Assembly (NCBI GenBank): GCA_027021085.1
Contig: JALUVB010000258.1
Coordinates: 1-6,299 of the forward strand
From: a bacterium
Lineage (GTDB): Bacteria; CAIJMQ01; JAADFP01
DNA: 6,299 nucleotides
Reading direction: 5' to 3'
Below are positions 1-6,299 of the stretch, piece by piece. Numbering within the stretch: position 1 is the first letter of the stretch; each line of letters opens with the position of its first letter. Both the position numbers and the translations under genes were made by a program. The notes under the pieces were generated by a model. That model searched no databases and was not told the origin of the DNA. It worked only from the letters and a program-made list of their open reading frames with translations.

Positions 1-3000
1 CCCCTGATTATACCTCCGGAAAAATTGACACTATTTTCAGGATAAAGCATACTGACGCTTGCAATCCTCTTCATACCTAACTTTTCAGCATCAATCTTAA
101 GGTCAATTACCTTGTCCTTCACATCAAAGTTCATCACTATCATAAAAGCCTTTTTCCTATCCGGGGCCATGTAGAAACTTGCCTTAACCTCATCAGGAAG
201 TGATACCGCTTTCTGCTTCCAGTATCCGAGGTAGGTATAGCTTGAGTCAAGGCCATTCTCATCGAAGGCAGAGTACAGCTTGACAGTTGGCTCCGGAGGA
301 ATGTAAAGCGGGAACCAGATCTGGGAGTTATGCAGGAATATCAGCCCCAGCACGTATTCCGCCTGCTGATAACCGAGCTCTTTCCATTCATTGGGCCGAA
401 TGGATCCGGAGCGGTGAAACTCCGGAAGGAAAACAGTGTAAGGGCCAAAATTGTTCTGGGCTGCATACTCGGCAGCGAACTGGTCAAGCCTCAATACCTT
501 CTCGTAACCGCGATTATTCTTGCGGTCAAGGAGCGAAGCATAATTTTCACCGTCCACCATCGCATCAGCAAATGAATACACCGGCATACAAACCTGCCCG
601 GACATGTGAAAGAAGATGAGCCCGTCCGGATGTTTTTGCTTGAGCAGGGTATAGATACGGCGCAGAAGCTGGCGGGTGCCCAGAATGTTCATGGTATAAC
701 CCGGTTTCCCCTCTTTATCTATAACTCCACAACCATGATAAATATTGTTACAGGCATGGGGTTTGGATACATCAAAGTAAAATGCCTGCACCTTTGTTTC
801 GGTAAGCAGTTTGTTCAAACCGTAGAGTATGAAATCCTGGAAACTACGAGCATTCTGACAGGTCTGGACTTTCCACTGTGCCCGGGGGATGGATTCGTTG
901 GGAATATAGAGCTGGTTGATGTTGCTCATCCATTCATCTCCAAACTGCTTGAATTCCGGGCTTGCTGCCCATATTTGCTGAAGACGGGCATAGGGTGCGC
1001 TGTAGAGAGTCATTCCGTAATCCGTTTTGGCTACCCCATAAGACTTACTCAGATTTTCACGGGGAATAGGGTAGAATCCGGTTGCATCAATCCGCCCCTT
1101 ATATCCTTTTTCCGTCTTCCACCAGCCCTGTTGCCAGATATGATAAACTTTAAGTCCCTTGTGCACCTGAAATGCCTTTTTGTAATACTCACCTACAAGC
1201 CCAGTTCCTTTTATTATCGGTATCCAGCGTCCTCCGATGGAAAGAATATCTCGCATATTCGGAACTGTGGGTTTTACCGGGGTAACGATGAATCCCAGGG
1301 CAAAGGTTACAGGTTTTTCAAGCACTACAGGTCTGTTGATCAGATGCAGCCTGAAAGCTACCTCTCTTTGTCCGTTAGTAACTGCAAGTTCTTTCTTTTT
1401 ATCCCGCACTATCCAGTTGTAGGAGGTCTCGGCAAAGACCTGAATACCTCCTTCCTCGTCACCCACCCAGCGTGGCCCCATGGCCGAGGTGTACCCTTCC
1501 GGAGGAAGTTCACCTGTGGTTCTCAGGCTGTAATCATAAGCATTAATGAGATGGGCATATTTCTTCTTCAGGGGGATAGTAAGCGTAAGTTCCCTAATAG
1601 ATACCTCCCCTCCTCTGGGAGCAACTTCTATTTCCATCCACATCATCCCGTCGAATTCAATATAGGATTTATTGGTAATTTTTACTCCCCCGAGATTCTG
1701 GATACGGGTAAAGCTCACCTTGGCAGGAGTCTTTTTCGCCTCGCTTATCCTGCTCACATTATCCGAGCTTACTGCTGATGTCCCGTCAGCCATTTTGATA
1801 GAAAGAGAAACGGGAGAGGAAAGAATCTTTTTACCCTGGTTGATGATCTGCACCGGGAAGAGTCTCCCCTGGAAATCATAGGTTCTGCCCCACATTTTTA
1901 CCGCATCATCTTTTACTTCCAATGGTGTCCAGGGCGGGGGAACCTTATCCGAGATACCCAGCTTATTTCCGAACCATTCCGGGAGTGGCTGCTTATCATA
2001 ATCAATCACTCTGCTGACCAGGATTCTATCCCCCTCCCTTATAGCCATCCTCACCCGGTACTTACCCACCGGGATGCCTTTGGTGCTCACCGTGGTTAAG
2101 CCGTCAAGTGAACCAAGCGGCTGAATGGTTTTTGACCTGATTGCCTTACTGCTACCGGCTGGAATGATTTCCACGGAAGCATTTAATTGGGCTGCCTTTT
2201 TATCTATTTTACGCAACTGCCAGGATACGGTAAGTATTTCTCTGGAAGGATACTTCTTCAGGATTAAGTCCAGTTTGCGGGGAATAAAATAAGGGATGCT
2301 CTGGGAATAGTATTCTTTCCCATCCTTATCTTTTACCTCAAAATAAAGTATGTTGGCTTTCTGCTGGGTTAAATCCACCCGGCTTTGAAAATTTGCTGTC
2401 TCCTCCGGTGCAAGTCTGTATTCCTGGCTGGCTAAAATTTTGTTCCCGGCCTTAAGGACTACAGTAACCACCTTCTCGTTACTGGAGACGTTTCTGAGCT
2501 CCGCTCCAAGTCTCACCTTTCCCACCCGGAAACCGGATAATTCTTTCATCTTTACCGCAAGTCCTTCTCTGCCAGTAAAAACTACCGTCCCAAACCCTTC
2601 ACCGCGTTTTTTGCTGGGGCCGGAGAAGTAGGACCAGGTATCCACCTCCCTCTTTAGTTGTCTCCAGTTGCGAAAAAACTGGAATTTCCATACTTCTCCC
2701 TTTTTAATTTCCTCAATACCAAGATCCTTAAGGGGAATGCGACTCTCCACAGTCCACCCGGACATGCTCAGCTGGGATTTGACATCCCACTTCGGGTCCC
2801 ATTTCAAGTTTGCCTCTCCACGCAAAGAGATGGAATATTCATAGGTAGTTTCTATGCCATTGACCCAGAGTCGGTACATACTCCCTGCCGGGTAACGCGG
2901 GATTATAAATACACCGAAGGCATCGTCAAAGTCAACGTTGGTGTCGTGGTTAAGGGCTGTGCTTTTGAGGATGCCATGGAGAAGACGTTGCTCGGGCATG

Positions 3001-3983
3001 TCCTTTGCTTCTTCAGGGATATCGCTCTGGAAGGCAAGGTAGAGATAGTTTTTATCGTAGGTGATATACACACGGCTCTGGGTTTCGGCGGCAGAAGCAG
3101 TGGTATTGTTGATGAATCCGGAGATAACCACTGCCTCCTTCCACTCCGAGGGATCAATCTTCCCGTCTATGATTATCCTGGCACCGGTCTCAGGAACGAG
3201 AACCTTCTGGCTGGTCATCAATCGGCCCTCCTTTAAAAATTTTTGAAATATCTCATCCTCGTTTAAAGCTTTATTGTAAATCCTGAATTCGTCCATGATG
3301 CGGTTTGGCTCCTCGTCTCCTCCAAAAGATTGCCCTACCCGGAACCAGGCCGGGTGCTGAATGGGTTCCATGCTTGTGTCGCGAGCTGCAAGCTTCCCAT
3401 TCAGATAGATGCTTACACCATTGCCTTTCTGGTAGGTCAGGGCAAAGAAGTTCCATTTTTTTACCTCTATTTTATTCCTTAAATATAATCTCTGGTCAAT
3501 CCTCTCATTATTGGCGCCCTTTTTGGTGATGAGAAACATGAGGCTATCCGAGTTCTTATACTTATAGAACCGTGTCCAGTTACCTCCACCGAACATCTCA
3601 AAGAGTTCCTGGTGATTATTTCTCCGGGAAAGGTAGTTTTTACCTTTAAGCCCCTTTACCCAGAAAGTTACTGTCCAGGAGGAGGGATTGATATTCCACT
3701 TAGCCTTGTAATAAACAACCTGCCCGTTAACACCGGTTAAAAGTCCCCGGCCTCTTAAACCCGGCACCAGCTTTAAAAGCGGGTCTTTCTGGGACTCCAA
3801 TGCTTTATTGAAATCAGGATTATTCTGTTTGGCATTGAAAACGCCCAGGTTGAGACCAGCAGACTTATCCGCATTTACCCCCTGGTCGAAAGAAGCATAA
3901 AAGGTAATCTCTGCTTCCGCTGCTGCCAAATAGATAGTAGCAGTAAACAGGAATAAGCCCACCAAGCTAAAAATTCTCTTCAT
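1..3983 (-). CDS. Giant secreted LamG / CBM9-like / GH123-like (DUF6067) glycoside hydrolase, 3' end missing
   Basis: The frame is open from the ATG at 3983 to the window edge, giving 1327 complete codons and no stop. Residues 1-24 look like a Sec signal peptide (MKRIF, a hydrophobic stretch, then AAAEA before EITFYASF) without a lipobox cysteine, so export is expected. Residues about 25-250 fit a LamG/concanavalin-like domain (SSWTVTFWVKG, KKWNFFALTYQKGNGVSIYLNGK, IMDEFRIYNKAL). Residues about 268-470 fit a CBM9-like sugar-binding domain (DGKIDPSEWKEA, YDKNYLYLAFQSD, DDAFGVFI, SGWTVESRIPLKDLG). Residues about 480-665 look like beta-sandwich repeats. From about 670 the protein resembles the GH123/DUF6067 group (DKVPPPWTPLEV, VKMWGRTYDF, then a barrel-like region from about 910). 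Candidate catalytic acids are D1071 (FYFDVSKP), D1144/E1146 (VDGEN) and E1188 (LPEFH), by inference only. Substrate is unknown; an extracellular polysaccharide or glycan is likely. Family recognition is from memory of motifs; the hydrolase assignment is less certain than the LamG and CBM9 calls. Confidence 0.85.
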   Translation of the reverse strand, partial: MKRIFSLVGLFLFTATIYLAAAEAEITFYASFDQGVNADKSAGLNLGVFNAKQNNPDFNKALESQKDPLLKLVPGLRGRGLLTGVNGQVVYYKAKWNINPSSWTVTFWVKGLKGKNYLSRRNNHQELFEMFGGGNWTRFYKYKNSDSLMFLITKKGANNERIDQRLYLRNKIEVKKWNFFALTYQKGNGVSIYLNGKLAARDTSMEPIQHPAWFRVGQSFGGDEEPNRIMDEFRIYNKALNEDEIFQKFLKEGRLMTSQKVLVPETGARIIIDGKIDPSEWKEAVVISGFINNTTASAAETQSRVYITYDKNYLYLAFQSDIPEEAKDMPEQRLLHGILKSTALNHDTNVDFDDAFGVFIIPRYPAGSMYRLWVNGIETTYEYSISLRGEANLKWDPKWDVKSQLSMSGWTVESRIPLKDLGIEEIKKGEVWKFQFFRNWRQLKREVDTWSYFSGPSKKRGEGFGTVVFTGREGLAVKMKELSGFRVGKVRLGAELRNVSSNEKVVTVVLKAGNKILASQEYRLAPEETANFQSRVDLTQQKANILYFEVKDKDGKEYYSQSIPYFIPRKLDLILKKYPSREILTVSWQLRKIDKKAAQLNASVEIIPAGSSKAIRSKTIQPLGSLDGLTTVSTKGIPVGKYRVRMAIREGDRILVSRVIDYDKQPLPEWFGNKLGISDKVPPPWTPLEVKDDAVKMWGRTYDFQGRLFPVQIINQGKKILSSPVSLSIKMADGTSAVSSDNVSRISEAKKTPAKVSFTRIQNLGGVKITNKSYIEFDGMMWMEIEVAPRGGEVSIRELTLTIPLKKKYAHLINAYDYSLRTTGELPPEGYTSAMGPRWVGDEEGGIQVFAETSYNWIVRDKKKELAVTNGQREVAFRLHLINRPVVLEKPVTFALGFIVTPVKPTVPNMRDILSIGGRWIPIIKGTGLVGEYYKKAFQVHKGLKVYHIWQQGWWKTEKGYKGRIDATGFYPIPRENLSKSYGVAKTDYGMTLYSAPYARLQQIWAASPEFKQFGDEWMSNINQLYIPNESIPRAQWKVQTCQNARSFQDFILYGLNKLLTETKVQAFYFDVSKPHACNNIYHGCGVIDKEGKPGYTMNILGTRQLLRRIYTLLKQKHPDGLIFFHMSGQVCMPVYSFADAMVDGENYASLLDRKNNRGYEKVLRLDQFAAEYAAQNNFGPYTVFLPEFHRSGSIRPNEWKELGYQQAEYVLGLIFLHNSQIWFPLYIPPEPTVKLYSAFDENGLDSSYTYLGYWKQKAVSLPDEVKASFYMAPDRKKAFMIVMNFDVKDKVIDLKIDAEKLGMKRIASVSMLYPENSVNFSGGIIR
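3218..3234 (-). promoter_or_regulatory. Internal Shine-Dalgarno and ATG at the LamG/CBM9 domain junction
   Basis: Inside the giant gene, the minus strand reads AAAGGAGG, eight bases, then an in-frame ATG (Met256, KEGRLMTSQK). The spacing and sequence are those of a real ribosome binding site, and Met256 falls between the end of LamG and the start of the CBM9-like domain. The codons used (K-E-G) could give this motif by chance. A product from here would lack the signal peptide. It is either a true internal start or a scar of a gene fusion. Confidence 0.4.
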
Positions 3984-3989
3984 CCTTTA

Positions 3990-3996
3990 CTCCTCC
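3990..3996 (-). promoter_or_regulatory. Strong Shine-Dalgarno of the giant hydrolase gene
   Basis: On the minus strand GGAGGAG is followed by six bases (TAAAGG) and then the ATG at 3983. This fixes the start and predicts strong translation. It lies 8 bases after the hairpin at 4005-4032, so folding of that hairpin leaves the site free. Confidence 0.8.
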
Positions 3997-4004
3997 CTTT
4001 AGTC

Positions 4005-4032
4005 GGAAAAGGGAAAGAAGAAACCCTTTTCC
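4005..4032 (-). promoter_or_regulatory. Intercistronic hairpin before the giant hydrolase gene
   Basis: GGAAAAGGG (4005-4013) and CCCTTTTCC (4024-4032) form a perfect 9-bp stem with a 10-base purine loop on the plus strand (pyrimidine-rich on the minus strand). In the direction of the genes it is not followed by a T-run, so it is unlikely to be a full terminator. It sits between the pseudopilin stop (4057) and the next Shine-Dalgarno. It may protect or process the mRNA, or lower readthrough between the two genes. Confidence 0.5.
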
Positions 4033-4056
4033 CGTTATATTATTTTGTTTATTTGT

Positions 4057-4791
4057 TTATAGGTGCTTCTTACCTACCACCTCGGGGTTTACTTTCCAGA
4101 GACTTTCATCTATGGAAGCGCTATAATCAGGTTTGGTCGCCTCAAAGGGCAGGGATTCTACATGTCCGTCACAGAATAGCCAGTTAGATACTCCACCATG
4201 CACACCATAGCGGGTAGGGGTATTCCATATTGAAAAGAGTGTGTTTCCCGACTGCCAAACTCTAACAGACATATTATTGGCTCGCAGGGCACCGTTACTT
4301 GCACCATAATTTTCTACAATCATCAACACTCTCGTGGGATTGGGGATACGGCTTAATTTTGCAGGGCCATACCACCGATCACCATCAACATCCGTTAATT
4401 CACTTACCTGGGCATTGAAAGCATAACTCGATTTTAAACCGCCCCAGTTATTTTTGATGAAACTGGCCATCCCGGTTTCATCGCTGGGACAGATGAACAC
4501 GTCCCAATTGCCAGCATAAGTATAAATGAGATTTTCCCAACTCGGGCCATCATTATTATCGACAGAAGCAGGCGGCACATAGCTATTATACTCACCCGCA
4601 TACATAATAATAGCCAGCCCAATTTGCTTCAGATTACTCTGACAAACTGCCTGTCTGGCTTTCTCCCTGGCTCTCTGCAAAGCGGGCAGCAGGATGGCCG
4701 CCAGTATGGCTATGATGGCTATAACCACCAATAGCTCTATCAGCGTGAACCCTCCTTTTGTCCCCCACAACTTACGAATCTTACCCATCAT
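4057..4791 (-). CDS. Type II secretion/type IV pilus-like pseudopilin with H-X9-DG motif (DUF1559-like)
   Basis: The 244-residue protein starts with a short basic leader and a class III signal: [20 protein letters not shown]. The prepilin peptidase would cut between Gly14 and Phe15 and leave the needed Glu at position +5 (Glu19). The hydrophobic helix continues to LLPAL and is followed by the conserved [19 protein letters not shown] region. FICPSDE (about residues 99-105) and [17 protein letters not shown] follow; in the latter His198 is nine residues from Asp208-Gly209, the H-X9-DG signature of a prepilin-associated family common in Planctomycetes and Lentisphaerae. It should sit in the inner membrane and be built into a pseudopilus. 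The start at 4791 is chosen for the perfect Shine-Dalgarno; a longer frame opens at 4842 but lies wholly within the regulator gene and lacks such a site. ATG at 4788 is a possible alternative. It overlaps the regulator gene by 11 bp. No other pilus or secretion component is present nearby, so assembly must use machinery encoded elsewhere. Confidence 0.93.
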
Positions 4792-5875
4792 CTCGCACCT
4801 CCTTTTTTCCCCGGCATTCACCGGGATTAACCTTTCCCACACTCTCTCTTATTACCAGCTCCGTTCCACAGGTCAGTTTTTTGAAAGGAGTCTTATTCCC
4901 TTCTTTAATTCGCCCCTCTAAAAGCTCCATACTCAATTTCCCCATGGCCTCCATGGCCTGGTCTATAGAGGAGAGTGCGGGAGAAACATAGTGACAAGCA
5001 ATAGTATTATCAAAACCAATGACACTTAGGTCCCGCGGAATATTTATGCCTACAGAAGGAGCCTTTTTAATAAAAGTAATACCATAAATATCGTTGTAGG
5101 TTATTACTGCCGTAGGAGGTTTCGGTAAACTTTTCCACTTCTTCAATGTCTGGGACACCAGTTCTTCCAGCTCTTTAACGTCCCTCGTTTTACAAGCGGG
5201 AAGTTGCAGGTATTCTTTATTCATAGGTAACTTATAATCCTCCAGGCCCATGTAATATCCCTGGAGCCGCTCCTTAAATCTCCGGACAGAAGGGATCCCC
5301 CATTTTTGCGGGACCAAGGCAAAAAATCCTATTCTCCGATGTCCAAGTTGATAAAGGTAAGCAAAGGCTTCCCTTACCCCACCCGTATTATCCGGCACCA
5401 CCATGTCACAGATAACGCTTTCCGTGCTCCAGTTCAGGAGAACCACGGGTACGTACTTCTGGATTTGTCTTATATCCTCCTCGGTTAACCCGGACTCAAC
5501 AATAATTACTCCATCCACCTTGTTATTCCAGAAAAGGGAAGACAAATTTTTCCTCCAGACTTCCACAATTATATTCCTGCCAAATTCTTTCCCTGCCTCC
5601 TCAACCCCGACAAAAAACCTGTGGTAATATGGGTTAGAGAGGCGAATGTTACGGGAAATAAGATAACCAATATTTCCTGTCTTTTTAGCCGCGGCAGAAC
5701 CGGGATAAGTATAACCCAACTCCTCTATTGCCTGTATAACCCTTTTCCTCGTTTCCTCACTTATACTTATATCCGTCCTGCCGTTGAGAACAAAGGAAAC
5801 AGTAGTTCTGGAAACCCCCGCTTTCCTTGCTACCTCTATCTGGTTTACTTTTCTCTTCCCCTCTTTTAATAACAT
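4781..5875 (-). CDS. LacI-family transcriptional regulator
   Basis: This 364-residue protein has the LacI layout. Residues about 10-56 are the helix-turn-helix ([21 protein letters not shown], then [18 protein letters not shown]). The rest is a periplasmic-binding-protein-like sensor domain with family marks: VDGVII (120-125), VVPDNTGG (159-166), [11 protein letters not shown] (175-185), [18 protein letters not shown] (256-262), [12 protein letters not shown] (279-290) and [18 protein letters not shown]. It is a cytoplasmic DNA-binding protein, most likely a repressor released by a sugar. The hinge ([14 protein letters not shown]) is three to four residues shorter than in E. coli LacI and has Lys where LacI has the minor-groove leucine (Leu56). 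ATG 5875 is the only plausible start: an in-frame TAA lies five codons upstream and there is no Shine-Dalgarno. The end, after TELVIRES, carries a short charged tail that overlaps the pseudopilin start. Effector and operator specificity cannot be read from the sequence. Confidence 0.95.
4797..4804 (-). promoter_or_regulatory. Near-perfect Shine-Dalgarno of the pseudopilin gene, inside the regulator gene
   Basis: The minus strand reads AAGGAGGT and then GCGAG before ATGATG at 4791. It decides the start over the upstream ATG at 4842. The same bases encode the last Lys-Lys-Glu-Val residues of the LacI-type protein, so the two genes are locked together. Confidence 0.85.
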
Positions 5876-5890
5876 GTTACTAACATGTTA
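5870..5890. promoter_or_regulatory. Tandem palindromic operator (two TAACATGTTA sites)
   Basis: TAACATGTTA occurs at 5870-5879 and again at 5881-5890, with one C between. Each copy is a perfect 10-bp palindrome, and the whole 21-bp block is also palindromic around 5880. The centres are 11 bp apart, about one helical turn. The upstream copy covers the -10 box and the downstream copy covers the regulator's start codon. Most likely this is the autoregulatory operator of the LacI-type protein (inference from position and symmetry). Confidence 0.75.
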
Positions 5891-5912: not shown

Positions 5913-5961
5913 GTCCCTGAGGCGGCAATAGTGAACAGTAGTATAGTAGCGAGGGGGAATA

Positions 5962-5987
5962 GATTCCTGCTTGGGCAGGCATGACAG
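5962..5987. repeat. REP-like palindromic hairpin in the gap
   Basis: CCTGC (5966-5970), TTGG, GCAGG (5975-5979) form a tight stem-loop, extended by an A-T pair and a T-A pair after one mismatch. On the minus strand the edges read GTCATGCCTGC and GCAGGAATC, much like the GTCATTCC...GGAATC dispersed palindromes found in many bacterial genomes. Only one copy is present here. No T-run follows on the minus strand, so it is at best a weak terminator for the upstream gene. Confidence 0.4.
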
Positions 5988-6057
5988 ATAGGAGTGGTGT
6001 TACGATGATTGATACCCACTAACCCCCAGATTATCTTACCAACACAGGGCACAGGCA

Positions 6058-6299
6058 CTACTGAGAGGCAATACCCAGAAGACGGCGAGCAAAGAGCAGG
6101 GCTACCGGATGGCCAGGAGTTCTGCCCGCCAGGGCAATCTGACTTATACGGAAATAACCGTCTCCGTATCTCTTTTCCGCAACTGCCAGGGTCGGTTGCC
6201 AATTGCCGGATTGGTGCTTATTCCCGGTAGTCAGTACAGCATCCCAGCCGGGGGCAGTAAAAGTTGTTGCCAACAGTGGAGTTACATAACCCTTCTCAG
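6058..6299 (-). CDS. C-terminal end of a probable glycoside hydrolase (5' part outside window)
   Basis: The reading frame enters from the window edge at codon 6297 and ends with TAG at 6058-6060, giving 79 residues that begin EKGYVTPLL. The segment AEKRYGDGYFRISQIALAG followed by HPVALLFARRLLG has the shape of the last domain of many large glycoside hydrolases (GH2 and beta-galactosidase-like enzymes), where a phrase like 'yGkGrv...ql.l' is followed by a helix ending 'll..ll'. Which family it belongs to cannot be told from this tail. The codon at 6273 is an internal TTG, not a start, because the frame is open further upstream. It runs in the same direction as the regulator operon but is separated by 182 bp and a fresh promoter. 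Confidence 0.6.
   Translation of the reverse strand, partial: EKGYVTPLLATTFTAPGWDAVLTTGNKHQSGNWQPTLAVAEKRYGDGYFRISQIALAGRTPGHPVALLFARRLLGIASQ

Follow-up and report, generated by a model that had tools for sequence, protein, structure and literature searches.

The stretch of DNA analysed here (the window, 6,299 bases) is the whole of contig C258 of a 1.93-Mb metagenome-assembled genome, G000, that is 94% complete with 3.9% contamination. Genes were called with a simple caller purpose-written for the analysis. Three genes on the minus strand, coding for a LacI regulator, a type IV pilin-like protein and a large secreted enzyme in that order, form the unit considered here, and they are accompanied by the following features:

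4781-5875, minus strand: LacI-family regulator, 364 aa, with a LacI helix-turn-helix (HTH) and a Peripla_BP_3 sensor domain
4057-4791, minus strand: H-X9-DG / DUF1559 type IV pilin-like protein, 244 aa, its gene overlapping the LacI gene by 11 bp
3-3983, minus strand: secreted LamG-CBM9-like-PF19543 (GH123-type) enzyme, 1327 aa in the window, starting 73 bp after the pilin gene and open at the contig end
5885-5912, minus strand: sigma-70-type promoter sequence TTGACA-16-TAACAT with an extended -10, before the regulator
5870-5890: perfect 21-bp palindrome TAACATGTTAGTAACATGTTA, operator-like in sequence, over the -10 and the start codon
4792-4826, minus strand: hairpin CCCGGTGAATGCCGGG and Shine-Dalgarno sequence AAAGGAGG before the pilin gene, within the 3' end of the LacI gene, conserved as DNA among the cassettes of this genome

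The open reading frames and family matches agree with the three-gene layout, with its overlap and gap, that a preliminary description of this DNA had given. The regulator matched PF00356 (56.8 bits, cut-off 27) and PF13377 (105 bits, cut-off 26.5). The pilin has a type III prepilin motif with Glu+5 (FTLIE; PF07963 N_methyl, 31.3 bits, cut-off 21.2), a DUF1559 core (PF07596, DUF1559/SBP_bac_10, 57.9 bits, cut-off 23.3) and the H-X9-DG motif at H198-X9-D208G (TIGR04294, 22.5 bits, cut-off 19). Its score against the GspG equivalog TIGR01710 was below the cut-off (39.5 bits against 88.85), indicating a pilin-like protein rather than GspG itself. An AlphaFold2 model of the pilin (pLDDT 76, pTM 0.74) showed a helix at residues 17-67 plus strands, that is, a long N-terminal helix and a beta domain. 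Structural comparison of the model using VIA-align gave a top Z of 6.2 to PilA4, the other rows being mostly pilins with modest Z, and a Foldseek search with the same model returned no match at E<=0.001.

An exact 127-nt overlap of contig C162 with the window end adds 15 codons to the enzyme, extending it to 1342 aa. The enzyme contains Laminin_G_3 at 97-245, a weak CBM9_1 match at 272-440 (17.3 bits, below cut-off) and GH123_N/PF19543 at 624-855 (80.8 bits, cut-off 22), with the remaining part of the latter profile at ~1235-1306, so that both profile ends are present. PF19543 was matched by all eight enzyme homologues. The catalytic domain PF13320 was not matched in the window enzyme, and the enzyme profile retrieved nothing but a CBM9 from the PDB. 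The invariant residues D1071 and E1146 are candidate catalytic residues. Four GH123-family paralogues of the enzyme, on contigs C216, C211, C191 and C149, have no pilin in the genes just upstream.

Promoter scores were compared across the cassettes of the window genome. The sites ahead of the six regulators all reached 10-12 of 12, whereas 71 other genes averaged 8.3 (P=1e-4), and the inverted-repeat arms before the regulator were longer than at other genes (P=0.002). Scores before the pilin and the enzyme were at background, C107 excepted. A strong promoter only ahead of the regulator supports one promoter per unit, as had been proposed for the window from its single good promoter. No terminator-like site was found on the minus strand between the three genes. 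On contig C162, a G+C-rich hairpin without a T-run lies 3' of the enzyme stop and is followed by a new promoter before the next gene, suggesting that the transcription unit most likely ends at the enzyme. The three genes of the unit include no SusC/SusD-like gene, the mark of a Bacteroidota-type polysaccharide utilisation locus. Collectively, these results bear out a single unit under a sugar regulator: it is very likely that regulator, pilin and enzyme form an operon and are co-regulated, and the palindrome at 5870-5890 is a putative autoregulatory operator. In C258 and C101 (L071:5564) the regulator ATG lies only ~10 nt past the -10 hexamer, which may leave the transcript without a leader. 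A hairpin upstream of the pilin Shine-Dalgarno sequence was seen in four of the six cassettes (the window, C42, C33 and C292), with paired changes in the stem (CCCGGT-GAAT-GCCGGG, CCCGAT-ACAC-ATCGGG and TCTCCGGTG-TTG-CATCGGAGA); it is possibly an mRNA processing or stabiliser element that sets the pilin level.

The arrangement is repeated within the window genome, which has nine Peripla_BP_3 regulators and 20 pilin-like genes, nine of them above the DUF1559 cut-off. A same-strand DUF1559 pilin follows six of the nine regulators (C258, C42, C101, C33, C292 and C107), and no regulator has a pilin upstream or opposite. Chance would give 0.03-0.07 such tandems (P~1e-11), the value for all six being 0.07 (P about 2e-11; uniform random placement is the null model behind the tandem P-values); five of the six lie within 600 bp. 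On C42, regulator and pilin are separated by a GH130 gene. A seventh regulator, on C48, extends beyond the contig end. The HTH of the six cassette regulators is of LacI type in three and of GntR type in the other three, and the sensor domain is the same in all; the "LacI or GntR" regulators anticipated in the preliminary description thus include GntR-HTH/LacI-sensor hybrids.

The pilin profile used for searching was built from the six cassette pilins of the window genome and favours similar pilins, while regulators were listed independently by Pfam family. Two genomes of one genus, from a phylum different from that of the window genome, showed the same linkage: 17/35 regulators in G098 (expected 0.22, P~1e-28) and 8/22 in G021 (expected 0.10, P~6e-14) had a pilin within 600 bp downstream. 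Across the tested genomes, only 0-2 pilins were upstream of or opposite to regulators. Among named genomes, in which regulator-pilin pairs were matched by eye between two lists, tandems were found for at least 5 of 58 regulators in Lentisphaerae bacterium RIFOXYA12_64_32 (G100), two of three in Ca. Zipacnadia Meg22 (Armatimonadota) and one of 13 in a UBP3 genome; a Kiritimatiellia genome (0/6) and a second Lentisphaerae genome (0/2) had none. In G002, from the family of the window genome, a LacI gene is followed by two genes and then a pilin. Extension of the plan to Planctomycetes-Verrucomicrobia-Chlamydiae (PVC) bacteria at large, suggested at the outset, was not supported. None of the 71 evaluable named loci, which were picked by pilin similarity alone and come mostly from Planctomycetes and Verrucomicrobia, was in tandem, and two had a divergent LacI-type gene, and the tandem was accordingly rejected as a general PVC property. 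G100 alone, a genome of 10.6 Mb, gave at least 150 matches to H-X9-DG-type pilins (276 candidates) and holds 58 LacI-type regulators. Several regulators or tandems stand at contig ends, mostly on the pilin side (G000:C48, G021:C69/C123/C70/C24 and G098:C9). Assemblies probably break at the conserved pilin 5' end, which would make the tandem counts too low.

To describe what follows the pilin, large secreted proteins were defined by a simple hydrophobicity rule and a size of at least 400 aa, among the three genes that come next. In G000, G021 and G098, such a protein followed in 23 of 27 cases for regulators with a pilin, compared to eight of 26 for those without (P=8e-5). Fourteen of the 30 secreted proteins contain LamG and five CBM9; others are GH123, GH42, NAGLU and similar. 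Together with the regulator-pilin counts (6/9, 17/35 and 8/22), this confirms the expectation that regulators and large LamG/CBM9/GH proteins stand beside such pilins beyond chance. The closest relatives of the window enzyme (G021 C39 and G098 C4) lie in loci with the order LacI, pilin, LamG protein, enzyme. For five of the seven G021 cassettes compared, the best matches of regulator, pilin and enzyme all agreed on one G098 cassette; the other two had no matching cassette in the G098 set compared. Within G098, regulator and enzyme similarity were correlated (rho 0.25, P=0.02, uncorrected for several tests).

The pilins themselves are built of a constant and a variable part. Among the six cassette pilins of the window genome, the N-terminal 52 residues are 81% identical (629/780) and the C-terminal part 25% (531/2090). 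The likeness extends to the DNA of the ribosome-binding site and 5' end, with four-fold degenerate sites 49% identical compared to 32% in the C-terminal part. The N-termini of the C258, C42, C107 and C292 pilins are closer at silent sites than their C-termini, which suggests that variable C-terminal domains acquired a constant 5' module by recombination or gene conversion. In a pilin tree built with FastTree, five of the cassette pilins of the window genome grouped together. The label for linkage to a regulator required 18 changes on this tree, compared to a mean of 27 (minimum 20) when shuffled; this suggests that regulator linkage was gained or lost many times, although linked pilins clustered by genome. 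The C-terminal part of the window pilin is nearer to pilins of the G021 phylum, including those adjoining relatives of the enzyme. This nearness is suggestive of cognate pairing, but significance was not reached when every cassette was included in a formal test (see below).

The machinery for such a pilin appears to be present. The window genome has four secretins, as does G001, a cassette-free genome of the same genus, and GspE/PilT/GspF-type genes with further prepilins are found on contigs C79 and C25 (the machine proteins being named by eye). This upholds the notion of a shared secretion or pilus machine.

The sequence evidence suggests that the operon in the window responds to polysaccharide, is probably autorepressed and shares its plan with at least five more in the genome, and that the pilin plays a locus-specific part in extracellular glycan handling; we consider this reading reasonably probable. 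The inducing sugar would make the LacI-type regulator leave the single promoter, so that the pilin and the giant secreted hydrolase are produced along with the regulator itself. The constant N-terminus of the pilin would be cleaved by prepilin peptidase and the protein assembled into fibres by type IV pilus/type II secretion machinery shared genome-wide, and its variable C-terminal domain would serve in the locus-specific, extracellular handling of the glycan of that locus. The conserved N-terminus fits assembly, and the variable C-terminus fits a locus-specific partner, either glycan or enzyme. Since the switch-plus-pilin plan is repeated at least six times in the genome and recurs in unrelated bacteria, each polysaccharide programme may carry its own fibre protein. 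More broadly, we would tentatively entertain the idea that sugar operons of several phyla hold exchangeable substrate-specific pilins, used singly in one shared machine, with the fibre re-tooled for each sugar sensed, whether to export one enzyme or to capture one polysaccharide.

Several results weigh against a locus-specific glycan role. The C-terminal domain of the pilin matched no carbohydrate-binding family. In a cross-phylum Mantel-type test, pilin C-terminal and enzyme similarity were not correlated (rho 0.05, P=0.32). G001, which is 86% complete, has no Peripla_BP_3 regulator and no cassette and retains solo pilins, suggesting that the regulator-pilin plan is dispensable; the patchy hits across lineages point, with this genome, to cassettes that are patchy and lineage-specific. 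Within G098 the pilin-enzyme correlation was likewise not significant (rho 0.15, P=0.12). On these correlations we rejected pilin-enzyme co-evolution, and the earlier suggestion that pilin and enzyme match each other was not borne out.

In the preliminary description the pilin was proposed to be a dedicated export adaptor: as part of the type II pseudopilus, it would be required for its cognate giant enzyme to be exported or displayed. In the window, as in most cassettes, the secreted enzyme comes immediately after the pilin, the canonical Glu+5 of the pilin indicates that it can assemble, secretins are present, and the loci with the nearest enzymes (G021 C39 and G098 C4) hold the second and third best matches to the window pilin C-terminus. 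However, the best C-terminal match (G098 C40, L279) adjoins a different enzyme (LamG plus weak GH42), pilin and enzyme similarity are uncorrelated overall, and the four GH123-family paralogues have no pilin alongside. That one pseudopilin set usually serves type II systems for the export of many substrates also counts against this proposal, which we regard as doubtful. Glycan capture by induced pilins fits the data as well as export of the neighbouring enzyme does, and it has precedents in the literature, such as pilus-linked attachment to glycans in Akkermansiaceae (PMC13174399). We lean towards surface capture, given that an enzyme-specific pseudopilin is not normally required by type II systems and that the pilin-enzyme pairing is not significant: the pilin more probably retains the glycan, perhaps together with the enzyme, on the cell surface than acts as a secretion piston for one enzyme.

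It is also conceivable, if unlikely, that the pilin serves generally in adhesion or at the cell surface, is simply turned on together with feeding operons and has a loose link to any given glycan or enzyme. This would agree with pilins preceding very different secreted proteins, with the solo pilins that have conserved neighbours in the window genome and G001, and with the attachment-fibre pilins of Fimbriimonas (PMC4072686) and Akkermansiaceae (PMC13174399), but alone it does not explain why every sugar-regulated operon should have a strongly diverged pilin of its own. Genomic hitch-hiking, in which a mobile or duplicating 5' module (ribosome-binding site plus pilin N-terminus) spread behind regulators without functional need, appears quite improbable: although this module is alike in DNA among the copies of the window genome and contigs break near cassette genes, the frames are intact, the pilin is always downstream on the same strand, the plan is present in other phyla and cassettes stay whole between species. 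Contamination of the metagenome-assembled genome, to which the listed contamination and the lack of regulator and cassette in G001 might point, is most improbable and was rejected as the source of the cassettes, since the window and cassette contigs correlate in tetranucleotide usage at 0.91-0.98 with the core and at 0.50-0.64 with G021/G098, and a dispersed repeat absent from the examined G021/G098 DNA is common to cassette and core contigs, tying them together and arguing against binning errors.

To our knowledge, LacI-regulated carbohydrate operons such as celC-glyR3-licA include no pilin gene. Otherwise these operons, known from a comparative study (PMC4052901) and from celC-glyR3-licA of Clostridium thermocellum (PMC5483248), resemble the window in having a local LacI-family sensor for carbohydrate-use genes and autoregulation. 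The alginate cluster of Verruconatronum alginivorum includes a PulG-like pseudopilin and appears to be up-regulated on alginate as a single operon; the genome has 67 pseudopilin homologues, acquired via several transfers and duplications, and the authors suggest that the type II system may export alginate lyases (PMC13274419). That cluster shares with the window a pseudopilin gene within a polysaccharide-degradation locus, but it belongs to another phylum, its enzymes are PL15/PL39 and no repeated LacI-pilin-enzyme plan is described there (PMC13274419). In Akkermansia MUL2, a pilin-like protein is linked to glycan attachment and use (PMC13174399). The likeness to the window, a pilin-like protein tied to a glycan, is drawn from the description of the locus, and MUL2 differs in being one four-gene locus with a PilM protein, without a sugar regulator or giant enzyme. 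Pilin expansions of 74 genes (PMC2754498), 68 genes (PMC10632474) and 79 PulG-type pseudopilins (PMC4072686) are reported from Planctomycetes and Armatimonadetes; these are large paralogous sets of the same or related families as the window pilin, and the three papers give no gene-neighbourhood function. Unlike the window, none of the mostly planctomycete and verrucomicrobial loci that we searched stands in tandem behind a LacI-type gene. No description of a LacI-DUF1559 cassette was found in the open-licence papers searched.

DUF1559/H-X9-DG expansions (68-79 published planctomycete or armatimonad copies, at least 150 in G100) have no agreed function, and the recurrent and statistically well-supported linkage of such pilins to sugar regulators and secreted glycan enzymes offers a concrete hypothesis and a genetic handle. 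If true, it would amount to a modular alternative to SusCD-type polysaccharide utilisation, built on exchangeable fibre subunits.

The dispersed repeat noted above is palindromic (TTCCTGCTTGGGCAGGCATGACAGA) and lies at 5927-5992 on the plus strand of the window, directly upstream of the LacI promoter. The window genome has ~25 more partial copies at 70-96% identity, related copies occur in G001 and G003-G006, and none was found in the G021/G098 DNA examined. Further upstream, at 6058-6297 on the minus strand and 182 bp from the LacI gene, is the 79-aa C-terminal tail of a further same-strand gene, which has no Pfam match and by eye resembles the end of a large glycosidase.

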